A DNA stretch of 64,000 nucleotides, from positions 1 to 64,000 of the forward strand of contig JAFDXJ010000027.1 in the NCBI GenBank assembly GCA_018268015.1, read 5' to 3'. The notes under the pieces were generated by a model, which saw only the letters and a list, made by a program, of their open reading frames with translations, did no database searches and had not been told where the DNA came from. Every line of letters starts with the position of its first letter. The first letter of the stretch is position 1. Below are positions 27,769 to 34,527 of the stretch, one piece after another. Position numbers and translations under genes: made by a program. This DNA is from Bacteroidota bacterium. GTDB taxonomy: Bacteria > Bacteroidota > Bacteroidia > Chitinophagales > Chitinophagaceae.

Positions 27769-28734
27769 TTAATAATCCCGCTGAACTAAAAATTCTGCCA
27801 GGTCTGTCAGGTTTTTTTTCCGGGACGATATCACTGCGGTTTCTTCAAGGTGAAAAAGGGCTGTATCCATATATTGTTGCTTCAGTTCTTTTGCCCAGGC
27901 GTCAACACCGCAATTCCTGAAAAATTGTAATACATTGGCTACTTTACTTTCCGGGTCAGTATGTAGCAAGTCTTGTAATTCTTTTTTACCCTTTTCGGTG
28001 GAATTTTCCATGGCATAAACGAGTAATGCAGTTTTCTTATTTTGCCTGATATCGCCTCCGGGTTCTTTACCAAATTTTTCCGGGTTACCAAATGCATCGA
28101 GATAATCATCCTGAATTTGAAAAGCGATCCCGAGATTACGCCCAAATTCATATAAGTGATTACAGTTACCTTCACTGGCGCCACCCAGGACTGCCCCTAT
28201 TTTAATGCTGGCTGCTAATAATACAGAAGTTTTTAAAGTAATCATCTGAATATAATCTTTTAGGGAAACACGATCTTTCTTTTCGAAATCAATATCCAGT
28301 TGTTGGCCTTCACAAACTTCAATAGCTGTTTTATTAAAAATCTGTAAAATGGGTTTTAAAGTGTTTACTTTAATTTTCGATAAATATTGATATGCAGCCA
28401 CCATCATCACATCGCCGGCTAGTAATGCAGTTGAAGAACTATATTTACTATGTACCGTTTGTTGGCCTCTTCGCAGAGCGGCGTCATCCATGATATCATC
28501 ATGCACGAGAGTGAAATTGTGGAAGAGCTCAATTGCTGTTGCAGCATTCCAGGCATCCTCACCAATAGGTTCAAATAATTCATGGCCCATCAGGCAGATC
28601 ACCGGCCTCACACGTTTTCCGCCAAGTGATAGAAAATAGTTACATGGTTCATACAAGGATTCCGGTGATATATTAAAGTGATTTTTTGAAAAACGTTCAT
28701 TGAAAATCCCGGAAAGCGTATCAAATGTTTGCAT
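27769..28734 (-). CDS. Polyprenyl (short-chain isoprenyl) diphosphate synthase
   Basis: 321 residues. The first Asp-rich motif DDIMD lies in LVHDDIMDDAALRRG and the second in FQIQDDYLDAFG; GKRVRP near the N-terminus binds isopentenyl diphosphate. An aromatic residue five places before the first Asp-rich motif (F in NFTLVHDD) argues for a short product such as farnesyl or geranylgeranyl diphosphate, by the known chain-length rule. It sits 73 bases downstream of the receiver-kinase gene and could be the last gene of that operon. Confidence 0.92.
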   Translation of the reverse strand: MQTFDTLSGIFNERFSKNHFNISPESLYEPCNYFLSLGGKRVRPVICLMGHELFEPIGEDAWNAATAIELFHNFTLVHDDIMDDAALRRGQQTVHSKYSSSTALLAGDVMMVAAYQYLSKIKVNTLKPILQIFNKTAIEVCEGQQLDIDFEKKDRVSLKDYIQMITLKTSVLLAASIKIGAVLGGASEGNCNHLYEFGRNLGIAFQIQDDYLDAFGNPEKFGKEPGGDIRQNKKTALLVYAMENSTEKGKKELQDLLHTDPESKVANVLQFFRNCGVDAWAKELKQQYMDTALFHLEETAVISSRKKNLTDLAEFLVQRDY

Positions 28735-28807: not shown

Positions 28808-29905
28808 TTATTTGCTTTTTATTTTATTGGGTATTTCAAGAATAAATTTTGTGCCTTCATCTCTTTCTGATTGAACGGTAATTTGGCCATTCAATTTTGC
28901 AATTGCTTCCCGCACAATAAATAAACCAATACCCAGGCCGGTCGCCGTACTGCTACTCCGGAAAAACATGGTGAAAATATTTTTTAAATCTTTTTCTAAA
29001 ATGCCGATTCCATTATCCTCTATTTGAATAAAAGCCATTTCTTTATTTGCTTTAACATCAATATAGACCTTTTGATTTGGTTCTTCGGGTTTTTGATATT
29101 TGAGCGCATTGGAGATCAGGTTATCAAAAATCACGGAAATTCTGAATGCATCACTGATAAACTTTTCATCCTGGTTGACCGAAATATCAAACTCAATGGC
29201 GGAGTTTTGCATTTTATATAATTGCACATTGGCCTGGATGATCTTATTAAAATCAATTTCATCTCTTGTTTCTTCCACCCGAATACTTTTATAATATTCA
29301 ATTATTTTTTTAATGTAGTCATCCATTTTAGCGGCACAGATACCGATCATTTCCATATAACCATTAGGATCTGTTACTGAATTTTCCATTTTAGCCAGAT
29401 TCAAAACGCCCATGATAGATGCGAGTGGCGAACGCAAATCATGAGATGTACTATAAACAATCCTGTTCAATTCATCATTTGTTTTTTCCAGCTCTGTTAT
29501 TTTTAATCGCAATTGTTCTCGGGTATGGTATATATCATAAGCATTCCGAATGACTAGTTCCATTTCTTTATCATCCCATGGCTTTTTAATATAATAATAA
29601 ATCTCGCCTTTATTTACCGCATCCTCCAGGGCTACAATATCTGTATAACCGGTAAGTAAGATGCGCATGGGATGAGGATGAGATCGGCGTACTTTTTGAA
29701 AAAATTGCACACCTGTAAATTGAGGCATTCGTTGATCCGCCACAATCACGTGGATATGCTGTTTCTCCAGAATGGCAAGGCCTTCTGTTCCTGATGATGC
29801 GGTAAAAACTTTGAAACGTCTTCGAAACCCAGCATAAAATGAATTTTGATTATTCAATTCATCATCAATGAATAAAATATTTATTTGTTTTTCCTTTGTC
29901 AGCAT
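28808..29905 (-). CDS. Receiver-histidine kinase hybrid, cytoplasmic
   Basis: 365 residues without a membrane segment. Receiver domain at 8-125: acidic pair D14-D15, phosphoacceptor D57 (VADQRMP), K108 in YYYIKKPW. A helical linker (125-150) leads to a HisKA domain with H155 (STSHDLRSPLASI) and a HATPase domain with DNGIGI and GLGIGLFIV. An N-terminal receiver in front of a kinase suggests it is switched by phosphotransfer from another kinase, probably the 7TM kinase encoded 15 bases upstream. Its receiver resembles the lone receiver protein at 33624-34076. Confidence 0.93.
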   Translation of the reverse strand: MLTKEKQINILFIDDELNNQNSFYAGFRRRFKVFTASSGTEGLAILEKQHIHVIVADQRMPQFTGVQFFQKVRRSHPHPMRILLTGYTDIVALEDAVNKGEIYYYIKKPWDDKEMELVIRNAYDIYHTREQLRLKITELEKTNDELNRIVYSTSHDLRSPLASIMGVLNLAKMENSVTDPNGYMEMIGICAAKMDDYIKKIIEYYKSIRVEETRDEIDFNKIIQANVQLYKMQNSAIEFDISVNQDEKFISDAFRISVIFDNLISNALKYQKPEEPNQKVYIDVKANKEMAFIQIEDNGIGILEKDLKNIFTMFFRSSSTATGLGIGLFIVREAIAKLNGQITVQSERDEGTKFILEIPNKIKSK

Positions 29906-29920
29906 AAGTCAATTTTCAGG

Positions 29921-32080
29921 TTAAGCTTCAGTTTGTGTATGAGGCAAAGTAATAATAAAATCCGCACCTTTGTTCATTCCTTCTGATTCTATTTCAATTT
30001 TTCCTTTATGCATTTCAATAATTTTGAAAACGATGGATAATCCCAGACCATTTCCTGAACCTACATCTTTTGTAGTAAAGAAAGGGTCAAAAATTCTACT
30101 CCGCACCTCCGGGGTGATTCCCAGCCCGGTATCTTTTATTGATATTTGTATTGTATTGTTGATGTCTTTAATACTGATGGTGATGTATTCCCTATTGTCT
30201 TTTTCTTCCTTAAACAGTATGGCCTGGATGGCATTATTCAATAAATTCATAAATACCTGGTTCAATTTTCCGGGATAGCATTCCACTTCGCCTTTAGCCT
30301 GGTAATTCTTAATGACCTGAATATATTCTGGGATACTGCTGTTCAATAAAAGGAGTGTTGAATCTATGCCTTCATATATTTTTACACTTTTCAATTCACT
30401 CTCATCCAGCCGGCTGAATGTGCGCAAGCTTCTAACAATTTCTGCAGTCCTTTCTGCGCCATCTTCAATGCCTCCAATGAGTTGATGGATCTCCTTTTTT
30501 AAGAAACCGAGATCCAACTTATGACTCTCTTCCTGAATGGAAACTAATTTCTCCTGCCATTCATCGGGTTTACTTTCGTGTAATATTTCATATCTGTTTA
30601 CGATACTGAAAATATCATCCAGATCCATTTTTAATGGTTTAATATTGGCTTTTACAAAATTAATTGGATTATTTATTTCATGTGCTACACCAGCAGTAAG
30701 CTGGCCGAGAGAAGCCATTTTAGCGGATTCGACTAATTGGGCCTGTGTACTCTTCAAATCAAAGATGGCTTCTTCTAACTGAGTGTTTGATTTTTCTAAC
30801 TCATTTGTTCTCTCATGTACTTTCTTCTCCAAGATGATATTTTGTTCTTTAATCAACATTTCTTTTTCCAATGAAACTTTCAATAGGTCATTTTGAGATA
30901 ATTCTTTATCCTTTTGCATCGTGTTTATTCGGTCTGCCAGAGCAACGGATAACAAAATGGTTTCAATAGCAGATCCCAGATATAAGACATATGTTGTAAA
31001 ATCATTACTTGGAATGACACCTAAATTTCGGAGACTAAAAATCACCAGCCCAACACAAAAAGCCACCCAGGAAATGAAAAAGAAAAATGCCGGCCTGTAT
31101 CCTTTTCTGGCAATATAAACTGATGCATAAATGGAAATAGCGCTGGCAAATAAACTATTTACATTAATGATAAAATAGCTTACATTATTTAAATTAGCAA
31201 AAGAAAAAATGATAACTATTACATATAAAATAATAAATCCCTGGTAAATTTTATGTACGATTGGGGTGAATTCACGGGTACGCATTAAGTACATGGCAAA
31301 GATGATCCCAAAAATGGCCGCAAGCGAAGTAGTGAGTGGAACGGCATATAAATTAAAATCCGGATGATGATTCCACAGATATTTATAGGTAAACCCGGCC
31401 AGGGTGTATTGAGCTAACCCCAAAAGAAAAATATATAATATATAAAAAAGATAATTGCGGTCTTTTATGGAGATGTATAAAAACAAATTATAAAAAATCA
31501 CTGAAAGCAATATGCCGAGATATGCTCCTAAAATGAATGAGAGCCTGTTGATGGCAGTATCTATGGCCGTATTGGAGCCTATGTAAAGACCCAACACAAC
31601 GGGATGCCGGGCTTCAATGCTCACATAGTACGTGGTGGTTTCTCCCGGTTGAAGATTTAGATTAAATTTTATAGGAGCTGTAATATTTTTATCTTCTAAT
31701 AAATTTTCATTTTCCGAATGAGATAACTTTTTAAAAGAATCATTGATCCATGCATAGATATTTATATTAGAGATATTGGTGTATTGCATCCAGACAGTCA
31801 GGGTAGGCTCCTGGGTGTTGTTTTGAATGGTAAAACGACCCCAGATTATACTATCTGAAACACCGAAAAAAGGAATTGATGCATGACTATCATAAAATTT
31901 TGTTGATGTAATGAATTCTTGGTTTAAAAGCATATGGCCATTAGTCCTGGTATATTGCATATACTTCCCTGTCAGCAAGGTTTTTTTTACATTATTGTAA
32001 TGCATGATAGGCTGTGCATTTGCACACAGACAAAAGCACAACAATATTAATAATATAGCAGATCCTGGTATGGGCCTCAT
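29921..32080 (-). CDS. 7TM-DISM sensor histidine kinase
   Basis: 719 residues: signal peptide (1-22), a periplasmic jellyroll domain of the 7TMR-DISMED2 type (about 30-165), seven membrane helices (about 180-385), a coiled coil (390-450), then HisKA with H467 (GVAHEINNPINF) and a HATPase with NLLNNAIQA, DTGLGI and GNGLGLSI. In this receptor class the extracellular domain is thought to bind small molecules. It lies between an ICMT-like methyltransferase gene (30 bases upstream) and a receiver-kinase gene (15 bases downstream). The ligand is unknown. Confidence 0.93.
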   Translation of the reverse strand: MRPIPGSAILLILLCFCLCANAQPIMHYNNVKKTLLTGKYMQYTRTNGHMLLNQEFITSTKFYDSHASIPFFGVSDSIIWGRFTIQNNTQEPTLTVWMQYTNISNINIYAWINDSFKKLSHSENENLLEDKNITAPIKFNLNLQPGETTTYYVSIEARHPVVLGLYIGSNTAIDTAINRLSFILGAYLGILLSVIFYNLFLYISIKDRNYLFYILYIFLLGLAQYTLAGFTYKYLWNHHPDFNLYAVPLTTSLAAIFGIIFAMYLMRTREFTPIVHKIYQGFIILYVIVIIFSFANLNNVSYFIINVNSLFASAISIYASVYIARKGYRPAFFFFISWVAFCVGLVIFSLRNLGVIPSNDFTTYVLYLGSAIETILLSVALADRINTMQKDKELSQNDLLKVSLEKEMLIKEQNIILEKKVHERTNELEKSNTQLEEAIFDLKSTQAQLVESAKMASLGQLTAGVAHEINNPINFVKANIKPLKMDLDDIFSIVNRYEILHESKPDEWQEKLVSIQEESHKLDLGFLKKEIHQLIGGIEDGAERTAEIVRSLRTFSRLDESELKSVKIYEGIDSTLLLLNSSIPEYIQVIKNYQAKGEVECYPGKLNQVFMNLLNNAIQAILFKEEKDNREYITISIKDINNTIQISIKDTGLGITPEVRSRIFDPFFTTKDVGSGNGLGLSIVFKIIEMHKGKIEIESEGMNKGADFIITLPHTQTEA

Positions 32081-32110: not shown

Positions 32111-32749
32111 TTACCAGATTAATGGAAATATTCTCCATGTTTTTTTAGAATATTCCCGGTAATCATTTCCAAAAAAACGAACTAAGGCTCTTTCTTCAAC
32201 ACGGATTCGAACGATATAACTTGCTCCCATGAAAATGAATGCAAGGGCTATGCTCCAATATGCATTCAAAAAAACGGCACAACCCACAATGGACAAAAAT
32301 GCACCCAGGTAACTTGGATGGCGTATAAACCGGTATGGTCCCTTTGTAATAAGTGTTTGTTGATGTTGCAATATTACAGTGGCAGTAAAATATTTTCCCA
32401 GGGTACGTATTGCCCATACCCGAATGATGATACCTATGAAAATCATTGTGAAACCAATGATTGTTACAGTAACCCTGTTTTCAAATTCAGGGTAGGTATT
32501 TGCCCATTCAATATTGGCGCTGACAATACTGGTTGAGGCTGCTGCGAGAATCAGTAATATAGAAAATTTATCTTTTTCACTGTTTTCTTTTGTTTCTTTA
32601 ATACTAAATGCAGGTTGGGTGAGCCAAATACAAAATGCAGCAACAACCAGGATTACAGTCTTATAATGGAGCAGTAATTCAGGATAAAAAAAGAATGGAA
32701 GGATATTTAAAATGAAAACGGCAAAAAGTGAAAAAAAAAATTTATTCAT
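32111..32749 (-). CDS. ICMT/PEMT-like membrane carboxyl or phospholipid methyltransferase
   Basis: 212 residues with five to six membrane helices. The C-terminal half carries the isoprenylcysteine carboxyl methyltransferase-type signature: GPYRFIRHPSYLGAF, then RIRVEERALVRFFGNDYREY and a final WRIFP. Bacterial relatives methylate varied, mostly unknown lipophilic substrates using S-adenosylmethionine. Its ATG overlaps the stop of the GNAT-fold gene by one base (TAATG), which points to a joint product. The pairing suggests methylation of a carboxylate made by that enzyme, an inference. Confidence 0.85.
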   Translation of the reverse strand: MNKFFFSLFAVFILNILPFFFYPELLLHYKTVILVVAAFCIWLTQPAFSIKETKENSEKDKFSILLILAAASTSIVSANIEWANTYPEFENRVTVTIIGFTMIFIGIIIRVWAIRTLGKYFTATVILQHQQTLITKGPYRFIRHPSYLGAFLSIVGCAVFLNAYWSIALAFIFMGASYIVRIRVEERALVRFFGNDYREYSKKTWRIFPLIW

Positions 32750-33507
32750 TATAGGATGATTTGGGAGGTGTTTTTTTCACCCAGGATAAATTCATCTTTA
32801 TGGGCATTCGGGAGTAACAAATCATTTTCAACCAGCAGGTCTAAATTTTTAAATGGCGATTTTTCGTGTGTTGTCATCGTGAGATTCTGACGCATAGAAA
32901 ATACTTTAGCTTTTTCTCTTGGATGGCATAAAGGTATATGTACCGCATCTTCCAAGACCACGGCAGTTGCAAGTAAATCAAATTTTGGGTAATAAAATGT
33001 ACCATCTTTGCCTACTTCCTTTAATAAACGACTCCCTAACCATTTATGAAAACGTAAGGTAAATGGGGAACATAAGAAAAATAATGATTGTAAACCTATC
33101 TGTTCTAAAACAACAATTGCTGCTCTTGTAGGAAATAAACTTCCAATACCATACCCAGCTACCTCAATAGAATTCCAAAGACCACATAATTCGGCAGTAC
33201 CATGTTGAGCATATCTTTTCACAACATCACAAATTTTCGGATCCATATCTTCGGTAGCAATTTCAATGGGCAACTTTGATTTCCCATCCACACAATGAAT
33301 GCGCACTCCACCATATAATTTTTCACGATCAGGTGATTCAACAACGACTACAAATACAGCGGAATCCTCCATCCATGCATCCGTAGATGAGGATACTTTT
33401 TCTATTCCGTGGTTTTCTAAAACTTTGCGATGGCCATGAATAAATTTTTGACAGGATACCGGGTCATCTGTAGCACGAAATGCACGAATTCGGATATCTG
33501 AAATCAT
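32749..33507 (-). CDS. GNAT-fold acyltransferase-like protein (FeeM/autoinducer-synthase-like)
   Basis: 252 residues, no signal peptide. The core reads like a GNAT fold: a GGVRIHC strand, a TAELCGLWNS strand, a GYGIGSLFPTRAAIVVLE helix and then FFLCSPFTLRFHKWLG. The pattern and the long inserted helices resemble N-acyl amino acid synthases (FeeM) and acyl-homoserine-lactone synthases more than simple acetyltransferases, but no diagnostic residue settles it. First gene of the signalling operon, one-base overlap with the ICMT-like gene and divergent from a receiver gene. The assignment is tentative; an exported-acyltransferase-like or orphan GNAT is possible. Confidence 0.6.
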   Translation of the reverse strand: MISDIRIRAFRATDDPVSCQKFIHGHRKVLENHGIEKVSSSTDAWMEDSAVFVVVVESPDREKLYGGVRIHCVDGKSKLPIEIATEDMDPKICDVVKRYAQHGTAELCGLWNSIEVAGYGIGSLFPTRAAIVVLEQIGLQSLFFLCSPFTLRFHKWLGSRLLKEVGKDGTFYYPKFDLLATAVVLEDAVHIPLCHPREKAKVFSMRQNLTMTTHEKSPFKNLDLLVENDLLLPNAHKDEFILGEKNTSQIIL

Positions 33508-33554
33508 AGGACTGTTCGGGATGGATTTGAAATAAAAAATGCTGACTTAATAAG

Positions 33555-33562
33555 CAAATATA
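33555..33562 (-). promoter_or_regulatory. -7 box candidate of the signalling operon
   Basis: Minus-strand TATATTTG matches TAnnTTTG exactly, 48 bases before the ATG of the GNAT-fold gene, giving a leader of about 40 bases. No good TTTG lies 21 bases upstream, so the -33 element is weak and an activator may be needed. Confidence 0.4.
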
Positions 33563-33623
33563 ACAAAATGTCGTTTTTTAGAAAAATTGTTTATTTTCAA
33601 TATTTAAAGCATTTTCAAAAACA

Positions 33624-34076
33624 ATGATAACTGTCCTCTATATTGATGATGAAGCCCATAACCTGGTAGGATTCAGGGCATCTTTCCGTAGGGATTTCCA
33701 CATTTTTACAGCAGAATCTGCTGAAGAAGGTAGAAAAATTCTGGAGAATGAAGACATTCATGTGATTCTTAGTGATCAACGCATGCCCAAAGTGACCGGC
33801 ATAGAATTTTTTGAATCCATTATTGAAGATTTCCCTGAACCGATACGAATTTTAATTACCGGTTATACTGATATTAATGCAGTTATTGATGCTATCAATC
33901 GGGGACAGGTTTATAAATATCTTACCAAACCCTGGTATGAAAATGAAGTTAAAAATTTTATTGATAAAGCCTATGAAGTTTTCAGGCTTCGACGCGAAAA
34001 TATCCTGCTGACCAATAAATTAATTGACGTGAATAAGAAACTGGAATTCCTGGCAAGACAGAGTCTTTTGTCATGA
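33624..34076 (+). CDS. Stand-alone receiver-domain response regulator
   Basis: 150 residues. A single receiver domain (2-118) with D8-D9, phosphoacceptor D51 (LSDQRMPKVTG), the TGYTD segment and K102 (YKYLTKPW), then a short helix (118-150) with no output domain. Like CheY or Spo0F it would act through protein contacts. It is divergently transcribed from the GNAT/ICMT/7TM-kinase operon across 116 bases, and its receiver is clearly related to that of the hybrid kinase at 28808-29905. It may shuttle phosphate between the two kinases. Confidence 0.9.
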   Translation: MITVLYIDDEAHNLVGFRASFRRDFHIFTAESAEEGRKILENEDIHVILSDQRMPKVTGIEFFESIIEDFPEPIRILITGYTDINAVIDAINRGQVYKYLTKPWYENEVKNFIDKAYEVFRLRRENILLTNKLIDVNKKLEFLARQSLLS

Positions 34077-34209: not shown

Positions 34210-34527
34210 ATGGCATTAGAATTCACAGATACGAATTTCCAGTCCGATGTACTGGATAGCGAAACACTTACTGTGGTGGACTTTTGGGCTGAATGGTGCG
34301 GACCTTGTCGTGCGATTGGTCCGGTAATAGAAGAATTAGCTAAAGAATATGAAGGAAAGGTAAAAGTGGGAAAAGTAAATGTGGATCAAAATCCTAATAC
34401 CAGTGTTCAATTTGGGATTACTTCCATTCCGGCAATATTATTTATTAAAGACGGAAAAGTAGTGGATAAGCAAATTGGGGCTGTACCTAAAGCCGTATTG
34501 GATAAAAAGATTAAATCGCATTTATAA
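34210..34527 (+). CDS. trxA: Thioredoxin
   Basis: 105 residues, single domain. The redox motif WCGPC is at 29-33 with the usual surrounding FWAEWCGPCRAIGP, a cis-proline in TSIPA (about 74-78), and no signal peptide, so it is cytoplasmic. It reduces protein disulfides and is recharged by thioredoxin reductase, whose gene lies at 59097-60050. Monocistronic, with a strong promoter and terminator. Confidence 0.96.
   Translation: MALEFTDTNFQSDVLDSETLTVVDFWAEWCGPCRAIGPVIEELAKEYEGKVKVGKVNVDQNPNTSVQFGITSIPAILFIKDGKVVDKQIGAVPKAVLDKKIKSHL

Follow-up and report, generated by a model that had tools for sequence, protein, structure and literature searches.

The closest described counterparts of the locus reported here are TrzAS/TyzACB of Mycobacterium tuberculosis and OxzAB of P. 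rubra, in which, as here, an N-acyltransferase of the FeeM fold adjoins a carboxyl-modifying enzyme. A different kind of likeness is offered by Vibrio quorum sensing where, in both LuxM-LuxN and AinS-AinR, the gene for the synthase of an acyl-amide signal adjoins that of a multi-pass membrane sensor kinase. In the mycobacterial system TrzA makes an N-acyl amino acid; Rv1355c, now TrzS, then turns N-acyl tryptophan into an oxazolone by cyclisation and desaturation (PMC12856293). The authors of that study regard what oxazolones are for as a major question still to be resolved and point to c-di-GMP genes nearby, and their paper makes no mention of a kinase (PMC12856293). Two further comparisons are relevant. 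The stieleriacine clusters are related to the synthesis half of the present module, while the NAMEs, produced by Roseovarius and for which no synthase genes are known (PMC11580390), belong to the product class predicted below for the variant described here but come from a different phylum.

The locus (Table 1) lies in a 64,000-nucleotide stretch of DNA, hereafter the window, from a member of the Chitinophagaceae. Compared with TrzAS/TyzACB and OxzAB it adds a dedicated 7TM kinase, a hybrid kinase and a receiver. The window variant further differs from TrzAS/TyzACB in having an ICMT-like enzyme instead of ThiF and nitroreductase, while relatives of the module carry the TrzS-family ThiF-nitroreductase itself (NF005901). 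The placing of a synthase beside a membrane kinase is shared with LuxM-LuxN and AinS-AinR, but the synthase family and sensor domain of these are unrelated, their chemistry is that of homoserine lactones and they have no exchangeable tailoring enzyme. With no match to an acyl-homoserine lactone (AHL) synthase and a different sensor, the module is not, as far as its sequences tell, a member of the LuxM-LuxN type. As the first-pass annotation of the window had supposed, no described system of this composition was found in the open-licence literature searched, nor any description there of a coupling between N-acyl amino acid synthesis and a 7TM kinase.

Table 1. Features of the module in the window (strand relative to the sequence as deposited).
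Feature	Coordinates	Strand	Proposed role or remark
GNAT-fold acyltransferase, FeeM/LuxI-like, 252 aa	32749..33507	-	Proposed N-acyl amino acid synthase
ICMT-like membrane carboxyl methyltransferase, 212 aa	32111..32749	-	Tailoring enzyme of the window variant
7TMR-DISM sensor histidine kinase, 719 aa	29921..32080	-	Proposed receptor
Receiver-histidine kinase hybrid, 365 aa	28808..29905	-	Second signalling step
Lone receiver, 150 aa, without output domain	33624..34076	+	Divergently transcribed
Divergent intergenic region	33508..33623		Presumed promoter region of both transcripts, from position alone

The GNAT and ICMT genes overlap by one base (TAATG), gaps of 30 and 15 bases separate the ICMT gene from that of the 7TM-DISM kinase and the latter from the hybrid kinase gene, respectively, and 116 bp lie between the GNAT gene and that of the divergent lone receiver. 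The genes, overlaps, domains and spacing given in the first-pass annotation are all borne out by ORF coordinates and Pfam matches. The span it assigned, 32111-34076, is real but omits both kinases (28808-32080), which belong to the feature. Immediately outside the locus, a polyprenyl synthetase gene (27769-28734) lies on the same strand 73 bp downstream of the hybrid kinase; BLAST recovered no polyprenyl synthetase beside related modules. On the other side a thioredoxin gene (34210-34527) follows the divergent receiver, as it also does in close relatives (L002, L032, L033 and L035).

The gene for the GNAT protein is single-copy in the window genome. At E ≤ 1 the protein matches no family in Pfam or NCBIfam, including FeeM (PF21926) and PF13444, matched by just one of 30 homologues, at E = 0.045. 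Since searches of the PDB with the sequence, alone or as a profile, returned nothing useful, a structure was needed for identification. An AlphaFold2 model made from an alignment of 30 homologues (pLDDT 92.1, pTM 0.89) has FeeM as its best PDB match in Foldseek (2g0b, E = 1.9e-7, TM-score up to 0.73 on the target), the next matches being BjaI and RpaI, both CoA-dependent AHL synthases. Comparison of profiles agrees, with hhalign linking the GNAT to FeeM-type GNATs at a probability of 93% (E = 4e-7) and placing its invariant E106 opposite the glutamate of their EGSR motif. The conserved G118-x-G120-x-G122 fits the GNAT acyl-CoA motif at the sequence level. Thus, despite the absence of a sequence-family match, the GNAT-fold reading of the first-pass annotation holds by structure, and the comparison with FeeM and LuxI that it proposed places the model closest to FeeM and the AHL synthases, with the glycine-rich acyl-CoA/ACP motif retained. 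On the strength of the model, a FeeM-like nature for the protein is well supported. It shares the fold and conserved glutamate motif of FeeM and NasY, but at around 18% identity to FeeM it is too divergent for the FeeM Pfam model and, unlike them, it is coupled to a membrane kinase. TyzA, whose activity has been demonstrated, was likewise recognised through structural similarity to FeeM and BjaI (PMC10404671). Neither the substrate amino acid nor the chain length can be read from the sequence.

The association of the GNAT with the kinase was assessed in 299 genomes of Chitinophagales, using cut-offs of E ≤ 1e-35 for the GNAT and at least 460 bits for kinase orthologues. The GNAT is present in 27 of these, with weaker matches in a few others. 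Kinase orthologues occur in exactly the same 27 genomes and in none of the other 272. Under independence the probability of such a coincidence would be 5e-39, a figure to be read in the light of the genomes being related and hence not independent. GNAT and kinase genes are neighbours in 26 of the 27 genomes; in G049, the exception, each is on a separate contig and the GNAT is close to a contig end. Almost every module locus has the hybrid kinase after the 7TM kinase, and most retain the divergent receiver. When 395 genomes of the phylum were searched with a profile, nine loci outside the order were added, and in every one the kinase adjoins the GNAT, a receiver or hybrid gene comes after and ThiF is present (as a contig-cut fragment in L102). 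The module is real and conserved and, given the presence of the kinase in 27/27 genomes with the GNAT and 0/272 without, the GNAT-kinase arrangement is not due to chance. Trees of the GNAT and the kinase are only moderately correlated (r = 0.43), so that strict co-inheritance is not claimed. With respect to the conservation of gene order, put forward as a check by the first-pass annotation, the GNAT-kinase-hybrid core is kept across the order and beyond, but the ICMT is not constant and swaps with other enzymes.

The best kinase match without a GNAT (L104, 348 bits) was set aside as a paralogue; here a 7TM kinase and a hybrid occur with no synthase. Separately, L039, L042, L051, L052 and L054 carry an extra small gene, of about 131-134 aa, after that for the hybrid kinase. 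That of L051, the only one scanned, encodes a receiver protein and possibly a third relay step.

These distributions bear on whether the locus is simply a metabolic operon, for housekeeping lipid or protein N-acylation, that lies beside a common type of kinase by chance or inherited gene order. 7TM-DISM kinases are indeed abundant, and the window genome contains 20 matches to the module kinase as query, most of them to the kinase domain only. However, the module is patchy, being found in some 9% of the order and 3% of sampled phylum genomes, its core stays constant as the flanks change and the kinase orthologue is never seen without the GNAT in the 299 genomes, all of which makes such an explanation very improbable.

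Among the 27 modules of the order, the gene beside the GNAT encodes ThiF with or without nitroreductase in 20, ICMT in five, including the window, and an FAD oxidase in two. The ThiF protein is of about 370 aa and its fusion with nitroreductase of about 775 aa; the fused form in relatives belongs to NF005901, the Rv1355c family (E = 2e-232). Strong NF005901 (ThiF) matches occur in 22 genomes of the order and all adjoin a GNAT of the module family. The fused protein as query finds no match in the window genome, and nitroreductase is absent beside the window GNAT. The type of second enzyme changes at least nine times on the GNAT tree, and ICMT, ThiF-nitroreductase and FAD oxidase are all found within the supported eight-member GNAT clade that holds the window. 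The FAD oxidase is of the VAO/PCMH type, matching p-cresol methylhydroxylase (E = 6e-59) and vanillyl-alcohol oxidase (E = 1e-40). It keeps the GYG and YR positions, which we take to be those binding the phenol oxygen in these two enzymes, and their retention suggests a tyrosine-derived substrate.

From the alternation of tailoring enzymes, the predicted product can be narrowed to an N-acyl amino acid altered at its carboxyl or its side chain. An N-acylated aromatic amino acid would suit all three enzymes, with ICMT and ThiF acting on its carboxyl and the oxidase matched to the aromatic side chain. One Bacteroidetes strain has been found to produce N-acyl derivatives of tyrosine and phenylalanine (PMC8433624). 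The same alternation weighs on a second possible product. BjaI and RpaI rank directly behind FeeM among the structural matches, and the GNAT might instead use S-adenosylmethionine to make an AHL-like molecule, as LuxI and BjaI do, with the second enzyme acting on another substrate. Yet a lactone would have no free carboxyl for ICMT or ThiF, one or other of which adjoins the GNAT in 25 of the 27 modules, and AHL synthase families are not among the Pfam matches of the GNAT set. We consider this origin of the product improbable.

In the window the second enzyme is matched to ICMT, with 73 bits to PF04140 (E = 2e-20, cut-off 24) and E = 5e-12 to PDB entry 4a2n. With regard to a prenylcysteine substrate, its 80.5 bits to the equivalog model NF040696 are below the cut-off of 160, and its subfamily regularly adjoins FeeM-type GNATs instead. 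The RHPxY and EExxLxxxFGxxYxxY residues of the C-terminal catalytic region are invariant in the six module copies. The known reaction of ICMT is carboxyl methylation of a lipidated amino acid, and the human enzyme accepts N-acetyl-farnesyl-cysteine, which makes an N-acyl amino acid plausible as a substrate. The closest ICMT relatives outside modules, at 37-42% identity, come from eight genomes of the same order (L105-L112), and in all eight the gene immediately follows that of another GNAT, of the FeeM type. The latter matches FeeM (PF21926) and PF13444, with several matches under the Pfam cut-offs, and BLAST does not connect the two GNAT types. The occurrence of this ICMT subfamily beside two unconnected types of N-acyl synthase supports the idea that GNAT and ICMT act in sequence, and the L105-L112 pair is itself a candidate pathway to methyl esters of N-acyl amino acids. 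At L105 the pair lies near CHAT-like and caspase-like genes, as read by eye.

None of these eight loci contains the 7TM kinase. Similarly, divergent GNATs of family f13 pair with ThiF-nitroreductase or oxidase without this kinase (L058-L061). The clearest case is L060; the others lie close to contig ends. The synthesis step can thus exist without this sensor. According to the first-pass annotation, wide occurrence of the two enzyme genes away from the kinases would count against its proposal of a lipid-like signal made by the pair and read by the kinase; the proposal is supported, with the correction that the enzyme pair is not tied to this sensor in every case, the module GNAT always being accompanied by the kinase but the ICMT with a different FeeM-type GNAT lacking it in eight genomes. 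Pairs without a kinase are what might be expected were the N-acyl amino acid derivative an end product, such as an antimicrobial, surfactant or membrane lipid, the kinase sensing the state of the envelope or its lipids and switching production on. N-acyl amino acids do serve as antibiotics and membrane constituents (PMC10404671), and proteobacterial oxazolone production is induced by sub-inhibitory antibiotics. On the other hand, GNAT and kinase orthologue correspond one to one even though the genomes and tailoring types involved differ widely, and the modules show no evident conservation of a gene for export or self-protection. An end product under such control is a serious but rather unlikely alternative.

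The 7TM-DISM kinase matches 7TMR-DISM_7TM (5.6e-47) and DISMED2 (3.9e-12), together with HisKA and HATPase_c, and its H467 lies in an intact AHEINNP box. The hybrid combines Response_reg with HisKA/HATPase_c and the divergent receiver consists of Response_reg alone. Neither receiver protein has an output domain. The outer domain of the kinase diverges faster than the kinase part, with mean identities of 23% and 54% obtained without a control set, and the difference is not used as evidence for a change of ligand. Beyond the window, at about 76-124 kb of contig C40 in the same genome, some ten histidine kinases related to that of the module lie within 50 kb on one strand.

Our preferred reading, to which we give a probability of roughly 55%, is that the module makes an N-acyl amino acid, that the second enzyme caps its carboxyl and that the 7TM kinase senses the product. 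The fold and motifs of the GNAT suggest that it would acylate an amino acid, probably aromatic, on its amine, with acyl-CoA or acyl-ACP as donor of the fatty acyl group. In the window genome the ICMT-like methyltransferase would then probably esterify this compound at its free carboxyl, yielding the methyl ester of an N-acyl amino acid. Where relatives have ThiF, alone or with nitroreductase, it would cyclise the N-acyl amino acid to an oxazolone and may desaturate it; where they have the phenol-oxidase-type flavoenzyme, the N-acyl amino acid would be oxidised. Whether located in the membrane or extracellularly, the product would be recognised by the fast-diverging outer domain of the 7TM-DISM kinase. 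Phosphate would then move to the hybrid kinase and the lone receiver, with the final output presumably located elsewhere. The parts of this scheme differ in strength. Homology and the swapping of partners make synthesis of an N-acyl amino acid derivative likely. Sensing by the 7TM kinase is the best explanation of their exclusive linkage; against it stand the enzyme pairs that manage without this kinase and the presence in L104 of a 7TM-DISM kinase and receiver-kinase hybrid without a GNAT.

If the preferred reading is true, a class of molecules of so far unknown purpose would acquire a role. The module offers a candidate receptor, in the form of a dedicated membrane kinase beside a TrzS-family gene in relatives or the ICMT gene in the window, and its ICMT variant offers a candidate route to the methyl esters. 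That it represents a new family of Bacteroidota systems for chemical signalling is a tentative proposal, somewhat short of an even chance in our estimation. The coupling of a synthase and a membrane kinase, with an exchangeable tailoring enzyme, probably serves the synthesis and detection of a lipid-like chemical signal, making the module a candidate for cell-to-cell signalling in this phylum.
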